Assembly (NCBI RefSeq): GCF_024448985.1
Contig: NZ_JAMOII010000005.1
Span: 1 to 64,000, forward strand
Direction of reading: 5' to 3'
Source: Stutzerimonas stutzeri
GTDB taxonomy: Bacteria > Pseudomonadota > Gammaproteobacteria > Pseudomonadales > Pseudomonadaceae
DNA: 64,000 nt
The position numbers and the translations under genes were made by a program. Below the pieces are notes generated by a model. It saw nothing but the letters and a program-made list of their open reading frames with translations, ran no database searches and was not told where the DNA came from. Of the stretch, positions 10,089 through 62,511 are shown one piece after another (the stretch's first letter is position 1; each line of letters opens with the position of its first letter).

Positions 10089-11561
10089 ATGGTTCTTTGG
10101 ATTCGCGATCTTTCCCTGAAGTACAAATTCTGGGCTCTGAATATGGTGACCTTCGTCACCACCCTGTTGCTGGTGCTATTCGCGTTACAGCTAGAGCAGC
10201 GGGCACGCAGCCAAGATGCGCAGACCAGCGCCCAAGAAATGGCCAACGTGTTGCAGAGCTGGCCGCAGGAAAGCGCGCTTGCGCGGCACCCCGATCTACT
10301 GGTATTTGCGGCAGGTCAGCCGGTAGTCATCGAAGGCCAAAGCGCCGCACCGCGCCAGGGCTGGATGGACATCGATCACGACCGCTTTTTCGCGACCAAC
10401 CCGGTCATCGGCGCGCAGCTGATTGCCAGGCCAGGCGGCGAAATCCTTGCGGTTCTGGCTCGCACACCTAGCGTCTTGCAGCTGATAAAGGAGCATTTCT
10501 TCAGCTATGCGCTGGCGGTCGCTGTGCTGATGTTGGCGTTGCTGGCGGCTTCGCAGGTGATGATTCGCTTCCTCCTCAGCCATCTCAACACCTTGAAAGA
10601 CGTCATGCTGCATGTAGAGCGCAGCGGTGATCTTGCCGTACGAGTACCGCTAGAAAGCCGCGATGAAGTGGGACAGATGGCCGCCGCGTTCAATGCCATG
10701 CAGGCCGGGTACCAGCGCATCGTCGGTACGGTGACCCAGGCTGCGACACGTTTGGACGAAGGGGCCAGCCGCCTGGCTTCTAGCATGAGCGATGTTCGCC
10801 AAGGCATGCTCGGCCAAAAGAGCGAAACCGATCAGGCGGCTACCGCGATCAACGAAATGACCGCGACCGTCCACCACATCGCCGATCATGCGCGAGAAAC
10901 ACGGGACCAATCCCAGCATGCCGACCGCCTCGCAGGCGACGGGCACAGTGTCGTGTCCCGCGTCGAACGCTCCATTTCCAGCCTGTCCCAAGGCGTGCAG
11001 CAAACGGCCGAGACGATTGGCCAGCTTGCCGCCGACAGTCAGAAGATCAACGGTGTCGTCAGCGTCATTCACAGCATCGCCGAGCAGACCAACCTACTCG
11101 CGCTGAATGCAGCCATCGAAGCGGCTCGTGCCGGCGAGATGGGCCGTGGCTTCGCGGTGGTCGCCGATGAAGTGCGCAATCTGGCCAAACGCGTACAAGT
11201 CTCGACTGACGAAATCACTCAGATGATTGCCGGACTCCAGGCCATGACCCGCGATGCGGTGGAATTCATGCAGGAAAGCTCGTTGAAGGCTGATGATTGC
11301 GTGAACGAAGCTCGTGAGGCAGGACTGGCGCTGGAAGCGATCACCGCGGCTGTGGCGCAGATGCGTGAGAGCAACACGCAGATCGCTGATGCCGCAGAGC
11401 AGCAGAGCGATGTGGCCGAAGAGCTCAATCGTTCGGTGACCGGCATTCGCGACGTCACCGAACAGACCGTCACGCAGACCGCCGCTTCGGCTACTACCAG
11501 TTCAGAGCTAGCGGCGCTCTCCGGAGAGCTGAGCAAGGCGATTCAGCAATTCAAGCTATAA
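10089..11561 (+). CDS. Methyl-accepting chemotaxis protein
   Basis: This 490-residue receptor has one N-terminal membrane helix (about 14-34), a short periplasmic sensor of about 100 residues, and a second helix (about 140-163). A HAMP domain with the [16 protein letters not shown] motif and a cytoplasmic signalling domain follow. The tip is at [20 protein letters not shown] followed by [16 protein letters not shown]. The short sensor is not assigned to a known fold. It stands alone after tatD. Ligand unknown. Confidence 0.93.
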
Positions 11562-53853: not shown

Positions 53854-54044
53854 TCCAATGTTCCGAAATGAAAAAACGGGCGGCGATAATAATCGTTGTC
53901 TGGGCAGAAGCACCAGATCCCGAGATAAGTGCCGGAAGCTTGCTAGGCGAACAGCATCCAATAGGGCTTCCTGTCGCTCGCTAGGCGGGAACCGATTGTT
54001 CTTGGCACCACACACCGCCGGACAGTCCGGACTGCAAGACAGAC

Positions 54045-54062
54045 TGTCCATTCACGCGGACA
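54045..54062. promoter_or_regulatory. Distal enhancer-like inverted repeat of the tannase gene
   Basis: TGTCC-N8-GGACA, a perfect 5+5 inverted repeat. Its centre is 163.5 bases before the -12 GC. The same motif stands upstream of the porin gene. Confidence 0.6.
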
Positions 54063-54075
54063 TTACAGCCCGTCA

Positions 54076-54093
54076 TGTCGCTTCCACTGGACA
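54076..54093. promoter_or_regulatory. Proximal enhancer-like inverted repeat of the tannase gene
   Basis: TGTCG-N8-GGACA, one mismatch from the perfect form. It starts 31 bases (about three helical turns) after the distal copy. Its centre is 132.5 bases before the -12 GC. Confidence 0.55.
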
Positions 54094-54201
54094 GCGATCC
54101 GCACTGACGGGCACCCGAACTAATTTCATCTTCATCGAGCGAGAGCGGCGCGATACCAGACGATCGACCGGCTATCGGGAGCTGAGCCTCAGCGCTTGGG
54201 C

Positions 54202-54218
54202 CTGGCACGCGTTTGGCT
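54202..54218 (+). promoter_or_regulatory. Sigma-54 promoter of the tannase gene
   Basis: CTGGCACGCGTTTGGCT: TGGCAC-N5-TGGC against consensus TGGCAC-N5-TTGC. GG is at 54204-54205 and GC at 54216-54217, ten bases between. The leader to the ATG at 54317 is about 88 bases. Confidence 0.6.
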
Positions 54219-54316
54219 CCGGCTGATGCGCCTGGCCGCTGCCGTATTCTTTCGTCCGGGCGCACTCGCCTCGTGGCGTCTGCCGCGGGCACGACAACAA
54301 GAAGAAGGAAGCCCCC

Positions 54317-55993
54317 ATGAAAGCACTCCGTGCAACCCACGCACGCCGCTCGGCGTCGTCGCGTCTGCTGCTTGCCGCTCCCGCTCTACTGGCAGCGGCG
54401 ATTGCCCAACCCACTCTCGCCGCCAGTTGCAACGAAATGGCCGGAACCAAGGTTCCCAGCGCGGCGATCGCGTTGCCTACTTCCGGTGCCAAGGTCACCG
54501 CCGCCACGCTGGTGGCGGGCGGTGGCAGCACGCCGTAGACCTTCGGCGCGCATTGCGACCTGAGCGTCGAAATTGCCCCGGTCGATCCGAGCGCACCAAC
54601 GATCAAGATGCGCATCGTTCTGCCAGAACAATGGAACGACAAGGCGATGATGTACGGCGGTGGCGGCTACAACGGCACCGTTCCCAACGTGGCGGGCAAC
54701 GTCCCGGCCGGACCGGTCGACCAGCCGACGCCGCTGGGCCGTGGCTATGCCGTATTCGCCAGCGACTCGGGGCACGTCGCCAATCCGGTCAACCCTGGCG
54801 ATTTCGCCTGGAACGACGAAGCGCTGACCAATTACGCCCACGATGCGCTGAAGAAAACCCGCGACACCGCGATGTACCTGATCGAGCAACGTTACGGTCG
54901 CCAGCCGTTGCGCAGTTATTTCGCCGGCGGCTCAACCGGTGGGCGCGAGGCGCTGGCGGTGGTGCAGCAGTGGCCAAAGGATTTCCAGGGCGCGATCGTC
55001 CTTTACCCCGCCTACAACGCGGCGGCGCTGGATCTGCAGTTCGGTCGCATCACCAGAGCCTTGGCCGCTCCCGGCGCCTTTCCCAACCTGGAGAAACGCG
55101 CGGCATTGCTGGAGGCGTCGATGCAAGCCTGCGACGAGCTGGACGGCGCACGTGACCGGGTGATCAGCAATCAGGCGGCCTGCAATGCCCGGTTCGATCC
55201 CGCCAAGGCCAAGCTCAACGGCCGTCCGCTGCGCTGTCGTGGCGGAGCCGATACCGGCAATGACTGCCTGTCCGATGCGCAGATCAAGGCCCTCAAGGTG
55301 TTCGACACGCCCATCCGCTTCAGCCGGCCACTGGCCAGCGGCGAGCGCGGCTACCCCGGCTTCAATACCTGGGGCACCGATCTCGGACGCCCGGGCGAAG
55401 GGCTGCAATTGGTGGTCAATCGGCTGGGCTTGAATACGTTGCAGCCGGACTATCCGATGCCCGTACACGACACCGGTTTCGCGGAGGGAGCGCCTTATCA
55501 TTCGGGGTTCTGGGATGAGTGGGTGCGCTACTTCGTCACCCGTAATCCAGCCTTCAACTCGTTGACGCTGGACCCGACCAACCTGGGGCCCTGGCAGGCG
55601 CGAGTCGATGCGCTGTCGCTGCGTCAGGACGTCAACCAGACCGATCTCTCGGCGTTCGCCGACAACGGCGGCAAAATTCTCATGGCTCACGGCACCTCGG
55701 ATCAGCTGGTCAGCACTCGCGCGACGGCCGAATACTACCAGCGCGTGCAGCGGGACATGGGCGTCGGCCAGACCCGACGGTTCATGCGCTATTACGAAAT
55801 CCCCGGCTACGCCCATGCGGCCAGCACGGTATTCAACGCCGCCTGGGATTCGCTGACGACGCTGGAAAACTGGGTCGAACGAGGCATCGTGCCCAAGCGG
55901 CAGGTCGTCACCGACACCGCCGCGGTGCCGGGTCGTACCCGTCCGCTGTGCGAATACCCGGCCTGGCCGAATACGTCAGCAAGCGCGACGTGA
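54317..55993 (+). pseudogene. Tannase/feruloyl esterase family gene split by an in-frame amber codon
   Basis: Codons 1-73 encode a signal peptide (MKALRATHARRSASSRLLLA..., cleavage near LAASCNE) and the start of the mature protein. Codon 74 is TAG (54536-54538). The same frame then runs on without a break to 55993, giving 558 codons in all. The alpha/beta hydrolase core has Ser206 in AGGSTGGRE, Asp462 in GTSDQLVS and His500 in IPGYAHA, and the family's CDELDGARDRVI calcium-type loop. The usual Cys beside the Ser and beside the His are both absent. A single C-to-T change (CAG to TAG) would explain the stop. Translation restarting at ATG 54608 would lack the signal peptide. It may be a recent nonsense mutation, a sequence error, or read through by a suppressor. 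Confidence 0.85.
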
Positions 55994-56187
55994 ACAAGGC
56001 CTCGAGCTTCGTCTGCGTAAAAAACCAGAAAGGCTGGTAATGAAGCGGGGTGGGTGCGAGCCCACCCCACTGAAGCCGCCTGCCCCGATCAATGCATGCG
56101 CATGGCGCGCAACGACAAACCTGCTCGCGCGATGCCCCTGCCGGCGACACAGACTGCTCCAGTTATCCACGCTCGACCTCCAGCAAG

Positions 56188-56205
56188 CGTCCGGCCTGCT
56201 GGACA
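56188..56205. promoter_or_regulatory. Distal enhancer-like inverted repeat of the porin gene
   Basis: CGTCC-N8-GGACA, one mismatch. Its centre is 173.5 bases before the -12 GC, exactly ten bases further than the distal copy of the tannase gene. Confidence 0.55.
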
Positions 56206-56229
56206 TTAGCAGCCCCGCATTTCAGTACA

Positions 56230-56247
56230 TGTCCAACATGGCGGACA
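56230..56247. promoter_or_regulatory. Proximal enhancer-like inverted repeat of the porin gene
   Basis: TGTCC-N8-GGACA, perfect, and extended to ACATGTCC...GGACATGT (56227-56250). Its centre is 131.5 bases before the -12 GC, against 132.5 for the tannase gene. Confidence 0.6.
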
Positions 56248-56354
56248 TGTTTGGTTCACCCCTCGCCCTCTTCGCCTCTGCCGGCCAACCGCCTGCACCC
56301 CTCTGGCTCGCTTGTTTCAGATTCTATTCATCTTTTTCTCTTGGTTCGCAGGGA

Positions 56355-56371
56355 CTGGCACGGCATTCGCT
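56355..56371 (+). promoter_or_regulatory. Sigma-54 promoter of the porin gene
   Basis: CTGGCACGGCATTCGCT: TGGCAC-N5-TCGC, one mismatch. GG is at 56357-56358 and GC at 56369-56370 with ten bases between. The leader to the ATG at 56473 is about 91 bases. Confidence 0.55.
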
Positions 56372-56472: not shown

Positions 56473-57732
56473 ATGCAACATGACCGCAAGACCATCTGCC
56501 AACTGCTATGCGCAGGCGCCGCACTGAGCGTCGCCGGACCCGCCAGCGCGGCTTTCTTCGACGACAGCAAAGCGGCTATCGAGCTGCGCAACTTCTACAT
56601 GAACCGCGATTTTCGCGGCAGCGAGTCCACACAAGCCAAGGCCGAGGAATGGGCTCAGGGCTTCATCTTGAAAGTCGAGTCCGGCTACACCGAAGGTCCG
56701 ATCGGCTTTGGCGTCGACGCCCTCGGTTTGCTTGGCGTCAAACTCGACTCCAGCCCCGATCGCTCGGGGACCGGCATCTTGCAACGGGACTCGTCCAATC
56801 AGCCGCAGGACGATTATGGCTCGGCCGGGGTGACGGCCAAGGCGAAGCTGTCCAGCACCACCCTGCATGTCGGCACCCTGCAGCCGGTGCTGCCGGTCAT
56901 CATGCGTAACGACAGCCGCCTGTTGCCCAACACCTATCGCGGCGCCTGGCTGCAAAGCAAGGAAATCGAAGGGCTGACCCTCGATGCCGGCAAGCTCACC
57001 GACATTAGCTATCGCGATTCGTCGAACAGCGAAGACATGACCGTTTTCAACAGTGGCCTGCGCAACATCACCTTTGGCAACAAGACCACCAGCGATGAAT
57101 TCCTGTTTGCCGGCGGCCGTTACCAGTTCACCCCTGAGCTGACCGGTAGCTACTACTACGGCGGGCTGGACGGCATTTACGACCAGCACAACTTCAACGT
57201 CGTGCATATCTTGCCGATCGGTGACAACCAGAGCTTCAAGACCGATCTGCGCTACGTGCGTTCCACCGACGATGGCGGCAGCAACGTCGACAACAACGCC
57301 TTTGGCGCGCTCTTCACCTACAAGATCGGTGGTCATGGCTTCACCGGTGGCTATCAGAAGATGAGTGGCGATACCGGCTTTGCCTACATCAGCGGCGGCG
57401 ATAACTCGCTGATCAATCTGTTGCAGATCAATGACTTCGGTAACGAAGATGAGAAATCGTGGCAAGTCCGCTATGACTACGACTTCGCCGCCATGGGCAT
57501 TCCCGGGCTGAGCCTGATGACCCGCTACGTGACCGGCGATAACGTTGATCGCGGCGCAGGCCTGAGTGAAGGAAAGGAGTGGGAGCGGGACACCGATATT
57601 GCCTATGTCATACAGGATGGCCCTTTGAAGAACCTGGGCCTGAAGGTGCGTAACGCCACGGTGCGCAGCAACTTCGGCGCCGATCTGGACGAAACCCGGC
57701 TGATCCTGAGCTACACCATGGCGCTGTGGTAA
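56473..57732 (+). CDS. OprD-family outer-membrane porin
   Basis: The 419-residue precursor has a signal peptide (about 1-27, ending GPASA) and the OprD-family start AFFDDSKAAIELRNFYMNRDF. The LPVIMRNDSRLLPNTYRGAW segment and a final strand ending YTMALW are typical of 18-strand Occ channels. These channels admit small carboxylates or amino acids. The neighbouring tannase-family esterase and aromatic-pathway genes suggest an aromatic acid substrate (BenF/OpdK-like), which is inference. It has its own terminator. Confidence 0.92.
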   Translation: MQHDRKTICQLLCAGAALSVAGPASAAFFDDSKAAIELRNFYMNRDFRGSESTQAKAEEWAQGFILKVESGYTEGPIGFGVDALGLLGVKLDSSPDRSGTGILQRDSSNQPQDDYGSAGVTAKAKLSSTTLHVGTLQPVLPVIMRNDSRLLPNTYRGAWLQSKEIEGLTLDAGKLTDISYRDSSNSEDMTVFNSGLRNITFGNKTTSDEFLFAGGRYQFTPELTGSYYYGGLDGIYDQHNFNVVHILPIGDNQSFKTDLRYVRSTDDGGSNVDNNAFGALFTYKIGGHGFTGGYQKMSGDTGFAYISGGDNSLINLLQINDFGNEDEKSWQVRYDYDFAAMGIPGLSLMTRYVTGDNVDRGAGLSEGKEWERDTDIAYVIQDGPLKNLGLKVRNATVRSNFGADLDETRLILSYTMALW

Positions 57733-59429: not shown

Positions 59430-60635
59430 TCAGACCCGCTCGACCGCCAACGCCAACCCCTGCCCCACGCCAACGCACATAGTCGCCAGACCGAGCTTGC
59501 CGCCAGTTTTTTCCAACGCGTGCACAGTGGTCAGCACCAGGCGTGCGCCGCTCATGCCCAGCGGATGTCCGAGAGCAATCGCACCGCCCTGCGGGTTGAC
59601 CTTCGAACTGTCATCTTCCAGCCCCAAATCACGAGTGACCGCCAATGCCTGCGCGGCAAAGGCCTCGTTGAGTTCGATCACGTTGAAGTCCCCCACGGCC
59701 ATGTTCAGCCGCTCGCACAACTTGCGCACCGCCGGCACCGGGCCGTAACCCATCACACGAGGCGCAACACCGGCGCTGGCCATTCCGAGCACCTTGGCGC
59801 GTGGCGTGAGGCCATATTTCTGCACCGCTTCGGCGCTCGCAAGAATTAGCGCAGCCGCACCGTCGTTGACGCCCGAGGCGTTGCCGGCGGTGACCGTCTT
59901 GTCGGGGCCGTTGACCGGCTTGAGCTTGGCCAGCGCTTCAGCCGTGGTGTCCGGGCGCGGATGCTCGTCGGTGTCGACGACCGTATCGCCCTTGCGACCC
60001 TTGATCACCACCGGCACGATTTCCTCGGCGAAGAAGCCCGCGGCCTGTGCCTTGCCGGTGCGTTGCTGGCTGCGCAATGCGAAAGCGTCCTGGTCCTCGC
60101 GGCTGATCTTGTGCTCCTCGGCCACGTTGTCGGCGGTCTGCGGCATGGCATCGACGCCGTACATTTCCTTCATCTTCGGGTTAATGAAACGCCAGCCGAT
60201 GGTGGTGTCCTCGATCTTCTGCGTACGGCCAAACGCGGTGTCGGCCTTGCCCATCACATAGGGCGCGCGGCTCATAGACTCGACGCCACCGGCGATGGCC
60301 AGTTCCATTTCACCGCACGCGATGGCGCGGAAGGCGCTACCCACTGCATCCATGCCCGAAGCGCAAAGGCGATTGAGGGTCACCCCCGGCACGGTATCCG
60401 GCAACCCGGCCAGCAGCGCGGCCATACGCGCTACGTTGCGGTTGTCTTCACCGGCCTGATTGGCGCTGCCCATAAAGACTTCTTCGATAGCAGCCGGATC
60501 GAGCTGCGGATTGCGCTCCAGCAGCGCTTTGATCGGGGTTGCGGCCAGGTCGTCGGCGCGCACCGCGGCCAGCGAGCCGCCGAAGCGGCCGATGGGCGTA
60601 CGTACGGCGTCGCAGATAAAGACTTCGCGTGTCAC
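59430..60635 (-). CDS. pcaF: 3-oxoadipyl-CoA thiolase PcaF
   Basis: This 401-residue thiolase has the acyl-enzyme Cys91 ([13 protein letters not shown]), [12 protein letters not shown] with the catalytic His, and the C-terminal Cys in TMCVGVGQG. It cleaves 3-oxoadipyl-CoA to succinyl-CoA and acetyl-CoA, the last step of the pathway. It starts with GTG at 60635, has a strong GGAGGTGA ribosome site, and overlaps the pcaJ stop (GTGA). Confidence 0.95.
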
Positions 60636-61390
60636 TCGTCACCTCCAGATTGTCCATGGGCGGCGGCCGTGCGGGCCTCCAAAGCGCGCAGGGCAACCAG
60701 TTCGCTGTCGGTCGGTGGCGCAGTTTCACCGAGCTCGTCAGCAAAACGGATCGCCCAGCCAGTGTTCTCGATCACCTGTTCGCAGGTCACGCCCGGGTGC
60801 AGCGAGGTCACCACGAATTCGTTGGACCCTGCTTCAGGCTCCATGATGCAGAGGTCGGTGATGATTCCCACCGGCCCGCTGCCCGGCAATCCGAGCTGCT
60901 TGCGATGCTCGCCGCCCTCGCCGAAACCGACGGATGTGATGAACGCCAGCTTGTCGACGAAGGTACGGTGCGATTGCTTGAGAATGATCAGCACCTGCTT
61001 GGCCGATCCCGCAATTTCAGGCGCCCCGCCCGCCCCTGGCAAGCGGACTTTCGGTTGGTGATAGTCGCCGATCACCGTGGTGTTGATGTTGCCGTACTTA
61101 TCCACCTGCGCAGCGCCGAGGAAGCCGACATCGATGCGCCCGCCCTGCAGCCAGTAGCGGAAGATCTCACCTGTAGGCACCACGGTATCGGCGGTTTCGG
61201 CCAGCTCGCCGTCACCAATGGACAGCGGCAATACCGAGGGCTTGGCGCCAATGGGGCCGGACTCGTAGATCAGCACGACTTCCGGCGCATGGGTCAGGCG
61301 CGCCAGGTTCGCCGCCTTGGACGGCAGGCCGATTCCGACGAAACAGACGCTGCCATTGCCAAGTCGGCGCGAGGCAGCAACGGTCATCAT
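60632..61390 (-). CDS. pcaJ: 3-oxoadipate CoA-transferase subunit B, PcaJ/CatJ, with altered start
   Basis: This 252-residue frame matches the CoA-transferase B subunit: [30 protein letters not shown], probable catalytic Glu43 in IYESGPIG, and [11 protein letters not shown]-like strands. From memory, relatives begin a few residues earlier with a short leader ending NEMMTVAA. Here the ATG at 61406, probably the native start, is out of frame with the rest by a 5-base loss. The in-frame ATGATG at 61390-61385 has no visible ribosome site. The partner subunit pcaI is not in the window; its expected upstream place is taken by truncated benA. Transferase activity is therefore doubtful unless pcaI is elsewhere. 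Confidence 0.85.
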
Positions 61391-61406
61391 TTGGTGCTGT
61401 AGTCAT

Positions 61407-62447
61407 GGCCTCGGCACTCTCGCCCTTGGGCGCGATGCAGTAGATGGTGACTTCGGTCTCGTCGACCGAGATCGGCCGAGCGATGCGCAGCTGCGAGCCG
61501 AACTGGTCCATCAGGTAGAGGTTCGGGTACAGGCAGAGGTTGCGCGAGTTGCCGATCATCCAGTCGGCACGGGCCTCGCCGACTTCGGCGACCAGCTCGT
61601 CTCGGCGACTGTACAGCGGACGGTCTTCGGGGTTGTCCCAGCGCGTCCAGAGCAACAAGTGGCCGTTCTCGAAGGAGTAGAAACCGCCGCCCTTCTTGCC
61701 CCAGCCGCCGGCGCTCATGGTGCGGATCTGTTCGCCGGCCTCACGCAGCTTGCGCTGATTCTGGGTGGCGGCGTAGTTCCAGTGCACGGCGGTGACGTGG
61801 TAGCCGTCAGCACCGTTCTCGGCAGTCAGTTTCCAGTTGCCGCCGAAGACGTAGCTGGAGGAGCCACGCAGCACCTCGATGCCATCCGGCGACTGGTCGA
61901 CCACCATGTCGATGATCTTCTTCGACTCGCCAAGAAACTCTCCCAGCGGGGCCACGTCGTCACGCAGGCTGCCGAACAGAAAACCCCGGTAGGACTCGAA
62001 GCGCGCGATCTTCTTCAGATCATGCGAGCCGTCGCAATTAAAACTGTCCGGGTATCCGGCTTCCTTCGGATCCTTGACCTTCAGCAGCTTGCCGGAGTTG
62101 TTGAACGTCCAGCCGTGGAATGGGCAGGTATAGGTGGCCTTGTTGCCGCTCTTGAAGCGACAGAGCATCGCGCCGCGGTGGCTGCAGGCATTGATGAAGG
62201 CGTTGAGCTCGCCATCCTTGTTGCGCGCGATGAAGATCGGCTGGCGACCCATATAGGTCGTGTAATAGTCGTTCTTCTCGGGGATTTGGCTTTCGTGAGC
62301 GAGATAAAGCCAGTTGCCCTCGAAGATGTGCTTCATCTCCAACTCAAACAACCGAGGGTCGGTGAACATCTCTCGCTTGCAGCGGAAGATGCCCTTCTCT
62401 TTATCGTCTTCTACAAGCGAATCAAGGTAGTCGAATCCCAGGGCCAT
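61407..62447 (-). pseudogene. benA: Truncated benzoate 1,2-dioxygenase large subunit (benA'), fused to pcaJ
   Basis: From the ATG at 62447 (GGAGG eight bases upstream) 347 codons match BenA. The Rieske site has Cys88/His90 and Cys108/His111 ([16 protein letters not shown]), and two of three mononuclear-iron ligands are His217 and His222 in [11 protein letters not shown]. BenA is about 450 residues in relatives. Homology stops after GESAEA, and the next base starts what looks like the pcaJ start region. The frame continues as nonsense to 61212. The third iron ligand (an Asp in the missing part) and about 100 residues are lost, and benB, benC and benD are absent, so this is not a working dioxygenase. 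Confidence 0.9.
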
Positions 62448-62484
62448 AGCCGGGGCCTCCATTGTTATTGTGTCTACGTGATGA

Positions 62485-62490
62485 AGGCTA
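62485..62490 (-). promoter_or_regulatory. Predicted -10 element of the ben promoter
   Basis: TAGCCT on the minus strand, 21 bases after the proximal BenR-type site. From memory the Pm promoter of TOL plasmids has TAGGCT at the same spacing, and the following sequence up to CAATAA...AATGGAG is also similar. Confidence 0.55.
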
Positions 62491-62511
62491 CGGCGCATGA
62501 AGCGGCATCAA

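Follow-up and report, generated by a model that had tools for sequence, protein, structure and literature searches.

3-Hydroxybutyrate is the monomer from which a natural polyester is made. The described regulatory system closest to the one presented here is that of HbcR (PA2005) in Pseudomonas aeruginosa, for which Lundgren et al. 2015 reportedly described sigma-54-dependent control of bdhA. In P. fluorescens, (R)-3-hydroxybutyrate activates a protein called HbcR (PFLU2630), according to one study (PMC10482368). Here we analyze a stretch of 64,000 nucleotides from Stutzerimonas stutzeri (assembly GCF_024448985.1, contig NZ_JAMOII010000005.1, positions 1 to 64,000 of the forward strand; referred to as the window), in which adjacent genes for a tannase-family esterase and an OprD-family porin are each preceded by a sigma-54-type promoter and paired inverted repeats. 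The explanation we favour, and consider reasonably likely, is that the repeats and a sister of HbcR make up a second 3-hydroxybutyrate regulon.

Like the HbcR system, this regulon would comprise an enhancer-binding protein (EBP) of the PAS-AAA+-Fis type linked to genes for a 3-hydroxybutyrate dehydrogenase and a gntP-like permease, and sigma-54 promoters with upstream sites. It differs in that its EBP (window EBP) falls in a sister clade (about 41% identity in the PAS domain and about 32% in the helix-turn-helix (HTH) domain), in that the operator is TGTCCA-N6-TGGACA and not TGTCTC-N6-GAGACA, and in that the predicted targets include the esterase, the OprD porin and probably phaZ. The esterase shares with PF07519 proteins such as MHETase the profile match, the alpha/beta-hydrolase nucleophile motif and the aligned Ser/Asp/His triad columns, but the cysteines which MHETase has next to Ser and His are missing from the window-type enzyme. 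The porin matches PF03573 like the substrate-specific porins of the OprD family and differs from them by its 3-hydroxybutyrate setting. A literature search covering titles and the beginnings of abstracts found no report of a TGTCCA operator, of 3-hydroxybutyrate oligomers as substrates of a tannase-family enzyme or of an OprD porin for 3-hydroxybutyrate. Neither did it find an activator for the site, in agreement with an original prediction made from the window sequence alone, which knew of none. PA2005 and HbcR are not named in the main text of a binding-site atlas (PMC8041468).

Paired putative operator sites and sigma-54-type promoters

The features on which the analysis is based are the following (window coordinates):

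54024..54041, plus strand: third, weak operator-like site AGTCCGGACTGCAAGACA, 8/10 half-site bases, neighbouring site 21 bases (2 turns) away
54045..54062, plus strand: distal operator site of the esterase gene TGTCCATTCACGCGGACA, 10/10 half-site bases, 11/12 to TGTCCA-N6-TGGACA
54076..54093, plus strand: proximal operator site of the esterase gene TGTCGCTTCCACTGGACA, 9/10, orthologues with sites at similar positions
54203..54218, plus strand: sigma-54-type -24/-12 promoter of the esterase gene TGGCACGCGTTTGGCT, 11/12 to TGGCACGNNNNTTGCW, 115 bases 5' of the ATG at 54318
54318..56041, plus strand: tannase/feruloyl-esterase family gene (PF07519), long open stretch matching Pfam at 2.5e-98, orthologues 78-97% identical
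56188..56205, plus strand: distal operator site of oprD CGTCCGGCCTGCTGGACA, 9/10 half-site bases
56230..56247, plus strand: proximal operator site of oprD TGTCCAACATGGCGGACA, 10/10 half-site bases
56356..56371, plus strand: sigma-54-type -24/-12 promoter of oprD TGGCACGGCATTCGCT, 11/12, 117 bases 5' of the ATG at 56473
56473..57732, plus strand: OprD-family porin gene, PF03573 7.1e-154, 513.1 bits versus a cut-off of 25

Both promoters contain the GG-N10-GC core within TGGCAC-N5-TTGC, and each agrees with this motif at 11 of 12 positions. The two promoters and four repeats (54045, 54076, 56188 and 56230) of the original prediction were all found in place, and a weaker third site of the esterase promoter at 54024 had been overlooked. 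The outer five bases are imperfect in two of the four repeats (TGTCG/GGACA at 54076, CGTCC/GGACA at 56188). From site centre to the centre of the -12 GC we measured 132 (esterase) and 131 bases (oprD) for the proximal sites and 163 and 173 bases for the distal ones; the distances given previously were half a base off. The spacings of 21, 31 and 42 bases correspond to 2, 3 and 4 helical turns, which places the sites in the window on one face of the helix: at the esterase promoter the site at 54024 completes a ladder of two and three turns, and the two oprD sites are four turns apart.

To be counted under a fixed rule, a promoter of at least 10/12 had to be preceded, at a distance of 50-200 bases, by at least two sites of at least 8/10, one of them at least 9. 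The 64-kb window contains two matches, the esterase and the oprD promoters. Since the rule was set after the sites had been seen, the weight rests on shuffles and control loci and not on these two matches: 40 dinucleotide shuffles of the window gave no match, nor did the 1,001,008 bp of control loci, which comprised 52 distant esterase loci as well as 13 source-genome loci picked for holding a site. Single sites were about as common genome-wide as matches to a reversed control pattern (34 + 26 versus 32 + 22, i.e. background level), and therefore the paired arrangement with a promoter is what counts. None of five source-genome loci around perfect palindromes (L139-L143) passes the paired rule; their sites lie in or near unrelated genes (named by eye). 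Few targets were recovered by a scan with a tighter site and a different distance range.

Esterase orthologues with 78-93% identity are present in 31 of 37 genomes of the genus, the source genome included (genome G014, with only a short 70% match, was counted as lacking the gene). From the 80 of 166 relatives that were kept, 28 loci of the Stutzerimonas group (L058-L084 and L135) were named as the orthologue set. When a promoter element of at least 9/12 and at least two sites were demanded in the window and these 28 loci, the arrangement was kept in 26 of 29 esterase promoters (exceptions: L080 with one site, L081 and L082) and in 20 of 22 oprD promoters (exceptions: L065 with one site, and L079). 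The predicted repeats and promoters are thus conserved upstream of orthologues. In both sets, positions 2-4 and 15-17 of the sites carry 1.7-2.0 bits, values which are inflated because the sites were preselected at a score of at least 8/10, and the site centres drift. Nine of the 28 promoters in the named loci have an equivalent of the third site (8 to 10 of 10) between -174 and -180. The proximal offset ranges from about -72 to about -157 between species and the spacings vary too; therefore the near-identical distances in the window are no general rule. The adjacency of the esterase and OprD genes, true for the window, is likewise not universal, as no OprD match above 60% lies within reach in L060, L063, L064, L068, L081, L082 or the short contig L061.

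The sites, the promoters, their conservation, the linkage to an activator gene and the separation of operators between two EBP clades (the last two are described below) can be read directly from the sequences, and we conclude that this is a real, conserved sigma-54 regulon.

The linked enhancer-binding protein and its sister clade

The source genome encodes 16 strong and 3 weak sigma-54 activator domains. The candidate EBP, with PAS, AAA+ and Fis-type HTH domains, is encoded at G000:C3:385965-387449, 2.2 kb from the 3-hydroxybutyrate dehydrogenase gene bdhA. In 15 of the 28 named loci an orthologue of this EBP is encoded within 1 kb on the 5' side of the esterase gene (that of L071 is a fragment at a contig end), so that the NtrC-type activator gene expected in the vicinity of the sites does exist. 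Among 21 loci chosen by their EBP (the one of the source genome, 3 of the same genus and 17 of other Pseudomonadaceae; 270,785 bp), the strict rule is satisfied by 17; in the remaining four (L149, L151, L154, L155) a promoter of 10-11/12 is preceded by weaker sites. A natural control is provided by L081 (S. azotifigens) and L082 (S. nosocomialis), which have the esterase without paired sites: no EBP was found in the L081 genome and only a 51% relative in that of L082, and the seven other genomes of the same search all have the EBP at 84-94% identity. The 37 genomes of the genus comprise 30 with both esterase and EBP, one with the esterase alone (71% complete), two with the EBP alone and four with neither; in the wider set the EBP is present in 42 of 56 genus genomes. 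On the grounds of this linkage, the window EBP clade very probably acts on these sites, to which its binding is predicted.

That a different EBP uses the sites can be given hardly any probability. CbrB is found by ChIP-seq at the promoter region of bhbP (PP3074) in P. putida and alters bhbP expression, but its subsites TGTTAC/GTAACA are unlike TGTCCA (PMC6296734). Moreover, the presence of sites tracks one EBP clade.

In a tree, two clades (17 and 21 rows, 100/100 support) separate the 50% relatives from the window EBPs; PA2005 is not among the rows. The median identity of the second, HbcR-like clade to the window EBP is 41% in the PAS, 62% in the AAA+ and 32% in the HTH domain. The HbcR-like clade adjoins bdhA, and a gntP-like gene is also found in 16 of its 17 loci. 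In L251 the gene order is liuE-hmgA-fahA-EBP-gntP-bdhA (names assigned by eye), which corresponds to the order around PA2005 in strain PAO1; by this match of gene order, PA2005 would be placed in the HbcR-like clade.

Operators were counted as sites of at least 10/12 in hand-set stretches directly 3' of the EBP gene, leaving out the five window-clade loci without a target gene there (L138, L144-L146 and L150). The window clade (20 loci, 9,832 bp) has 43 TGTCCA-type versus no TGTCTC-type sites, with all 20 loci in agreement, and the HbcR-like clade (16 loci, 5,071 bp) has 26 TGTCTC-type versus no TGTCCA-type sites, with 15 of 16 loci in agreement and one tie. Because both consensus strings were derived from these same loci, the split and not the score is the finding: the operator TGTCTC-N6-GAGACA of the HbcR-like clade is missing from the stretches of the window clade, which has its own, TGTCCA-N6-TGGACA. 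TGTCTC-N6-GAGACA is thus probably the sequence recognized by the characterized HbcR, of which the window activator would be a sister with an operator of its own.

An assignment of the linked EBP as the HbcR orthologue was dropped, because its 50% relatives beside gntP-bdhA turned out to be a second clade with a different operator. It could still be argued that the activator is HbcR itself (PA2005) and that the genes described here are additions to a known regulon: both clades adjoin bdhA, PA2005 is itself absent from the tree, and the P. fluorescens HbcR, whose activation by (R)-3-hydroxybutyrate is mentioned above, may belong to either clade. We regard this as unlikely in view of the fully supported split and of the TGTCTC operator in the clade with the PAO1 gene order. 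In addition, the source genome has a single EBP-search match at E 1e-120, and the L082 genome retains the 51% relative, yet its esterase gene has no sites.

EBPs with 38-50% identity to the window EBP were also seen near esterase homologues in L089 (Cupriavidus sp. AU9028) and in the metagenome-assembled genomes L115 (Comamonadaceae) and L119 (Polaromonas). In L115 and L119 the identity refers to short stretches, and none of the three loci has TGTCCA sites.

Predicted target genes and the 3-hydroxybutyrate setting

The bdhA gene of the source genome (L138) has its own site pair (6548 and 6600) and promoter (6717), and its product passes the 3-hydroxybutyrate dehydrogenase cut-offs of TIGR01963 and NF009093, i.e. 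a 3-hydroxybutyrate dehydrogenase gene is under the same operator as the esterase gene and oprD. A gntP-like permease gene with a close homologue in 12 genomes is likewise preceded by sites and promoter in 11 of them, the match of the remaining genome being located on a different contig, and bdhA follows this gene in all 12. The permease type in L156 matches PF02447; that of Stutzerimonas reaches no Pfam family and is called gntP-like because of the 48-50% identity between the two types. Elsewhere, EBP loci contain genes for tripartite ATP-independent periplasmic (TRAP) transporters, a gntP-like transporter, a CoA transferase, oprD, bdhA or a poly-3-hydroxybutyrate (PHB) depolymerase gene, arranged for example as phaZ-EBP-oprD-bdhA in L152 and phaZ-TRAP-EBP-oprD-bdhA in L148. 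An OprD-family gene adjoins bdhA in L145, L148 and L152; in the latter two it lies between the EBP gene and bdhA without an esterase gene, and in L145, whose genome has no esterase, oprD has sites. The OprD gene is thus independent of the esterase and tied to 3-hydroxybutyrate genes without it.

The PHB depolymerase gene of the source genome lies outside the window (G000:C5:143111-144796). Its product has a signal-like start and reaches 204 bits versus a cut-off of 150 in the model for extracellular short-chain polyhydroxyalkanoate depolymerases of catalytic type 1 (NF050058), and the upstream region (within G000:C5:142857-144796) contains two operator-like sites and a promoter-like element. 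In this genome the gene is probably a member of the regulon.

Several near-consensus operator sites were also seen in L145 (1494-1742) and L146 (about 10461-10604), before a possible promoter, AGGCACAGAACCTGCT, which stands ahead of the TRAP transporter genes adjoining the EBP gene.

In our judgement the acid of the regulon is likely to be 3-hydroxybutyrate. Alternatively, the enzyme could free benzoate, gallate or a hydroxycinnamate, with a BenF-like porin. The family name suggests it, the nearest solved relatives are MHETase and feruloyl esterases, and genes for a ring dioxygenase alpha subunit and, by eye, of the beta-ketoadipate type are located 1-5 kb away in the window; furthermore, L152 is flanked by hmgA-fahA-like genes, as is L147 by a fahA-like one. 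However, the sites are common to bdhA and the gntP-bdhA operon, oprD adjoins bdhA without the esterase in the three loci named above, and the EBP loci carry bdhA, a TRAP or gntP-like transporter, a CoA transferase or phaZ. An aromatic-acid regulon is therefore quite improbable.

The esterase belongs to PF07519 by a wide margin (330.5 bits for the open stretch in the window and 364.1 for L060, with a cut-off of 29.8). An alignment of 34 homologues shows no variation in the Ser, Asp and His columns that correspond to the MHETase triad, and the nucleophile motif GGSTGGRE is present in 80 of 80 homologues, none of which has Cys before Ser. Among the 74 of 80 homologues that the search pattern caught (it missed six), the catalytic His is followed by A, S, V or G and never by Cys. 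Cys before Ser and Cys after His belong to the "CS-D-HC" motif of the feruloyl esterase/tannase/MHETase group, a motif that window-type esterases do not have. Because these flanking cysteines are absent, we consider the window-type enzymes a separate subgroup of PF07519.

By eye, the N-terminus of the Stutzerimonas esterases is an ordinary signal peptide, whereas a lipobox is present in several homologues from Burkholderiales. A location in the periplasm or at the outer membrane fits better than free secretion. The signal peptide carries the idea of a secreted esterase as far as the periplasm. In the source strain the gene is interrupted: codon 74 is an in-frame TAG (54537-54539), and a frameshift is located in the last ~25 codons (about 55960). 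The frames of the relatives are open. With these two lesions the gene may be dead in the source strain, and the chances stand about even that it has decayed, that its promoter is a relic and that only oprD and bdhA matter here, which would be compatible with the favoured explanation for the relatives. Promoter and sites are intact, however, and both lesions could be assembly errors.

The known PHB oligomer hydrolase is an enzyme of the PF10605 type. For the window-type esterase, we infer from the co-regulation that the substrate may be 3-hydroxybutyrate oligomers or other 3-hydroxybutyrate esters; specifically for a 3-hydroxybutyrate-oligomer hydrolase, we would give even odds.

In L085, on a contig labelled Solirubrobacterales, the esterase is 67% identical to that of the window, the same level as in Cupriavidus homologues, and the contig is perhaps mis-binned. 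Actinobacterial homologues with 52-59% identity (Georgenia, Amycolatopsis, Crossiella and Bailinhaonella; L121, L130, L132-L134, L136 and L137) suggest a wide horizontal spread of the esterase subgroup.

Proposed regulon and opposing evidence

The proposed second 3-hydroxybutyrate regulon would work as follows. The repeats would serve as upstream activating sequences (TGTCCA-N6-TGGACA) of the PAS-AAA+-Fis EBP encoded beside bdhA, the PAS domain of which may sense 3-hydroxybutyrate or a close relative. The EBP would occupy two or three in-phase sites and activate sigma-54 RNA polymerase, by which the separate promoters of the esterase gene, oprD and bdhA would be switched on; further targets would be the PHB depolymerase gene here (probably) and the gntP-like permease gene in other Stutzerimonas. 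Oligomers of 3-hydroxybutyrate, released by the depolymerase or by other organisms, or the acid itself would enter through the porin, the esterase, in the periplasm or outside, would cleave the oligomers to 3-hydroxybutyrate, and BdhA would oxidize it. From the original interpretation, the shared sigma-54 regulon with a linked activator is retained; further members, a likely activator and a likely acid have been added.

Several observations weigh against this explanation. The whole case is built on sequence, with binding, expression and enzyme activity all predicted. The PAS domain of PA2005/HbcR was assigned to an autoinducer by conserved residues in one report (PMC8694187). Between the two EBP clades, PAS identity is no more than about 41%, and therefore the ligand may differ. 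One of six HbcR-like loci (L244) passes a looser window-type rule. Beyond the Stutzerimonas group, 52 esterase loci with 52-67% identity gave no fixed-rule match, and comparisons of the neighbouring genes in 43 and in 47 of them turned up no shared partner. Aromatic esters gave the esterase family its name, and MHETase is the nearest solved relative by sequence. The Fisher p of 0.001 for the joint occurrence of esterase and EBP takes no account of kinship. With respect to the depolymerase, the phaZ promoter of the source genome is weaker (9/12, a cut-off at which the control loci still gave no match), and the phaZ genes of L148 and L152, although they have sites, lack a promoter of 8/12 or better within 400 bases. 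A close homologue of this depolymerase is found in only 3 of 56 genus genomes (the source and 2 of 55 others); most esterase carriers therefore have no such enzyme at their side. A loose sites-plus-promoter pattern matched 56 times in 38 genomes versus 43 times for the reversed control. With totals so close, information comes only from matches that return at the same genes, as the loose ones do at the promoters of the esterase gene and oprD and in front of the gntP-like permease gene.

If the proposed regulon exists, an orphan sigma-54 site gains a testable activator, operator and ligand class, and a new substrate for a subgroup of tannase/MHETase enzymes is predicted purely from regulation. 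Sister regulators with separate operator codes would be a clean pair for studying how duplicated activators are insulated, and the regulon would bear on the life of pseudomonads on bacterial polyester produced by others. It is tempting to speculate, although we advance this only tentatively, that Pseudomonadaceae have two old sister 3-hydroxybutyrate activators insulated by two operator positions per half-site. The HbcR-like one would serve the monomer operon and the window one the scavenging of polymer-derived oligomers, perhaps by sensing oligomers; in Stutzerimonas the latter would have recruited a tannase-fold enzyme without the cysteine pair of its family as periplasmic oligomer hydrolase, fed by a dedicated OprD porin.

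Two minor observations were made besides. At 60632-62498 of the window (minus strand), an open reading frame for a ring-hydroxylating dioxygenase alpha subunit has a seemingly out-of-frame tail overlapping a CoA-transferase-like open reading frame (named by eye), as if a stretch were deleted or the assembly wrong; no relative of this dioxygenase frame was present among the loci examined. In L216 (G003:C1:2188062-2188203), TGTCGC/GCGACA-type repeats are located 127 bases before a promoter of the TGGCAC-N5-TTGC type, and the next gene resembles a quinoprotein dehydrogenase gene. This arrangement is conserved, with matches also in the genomes G011, G016, G017, G020 and G024.

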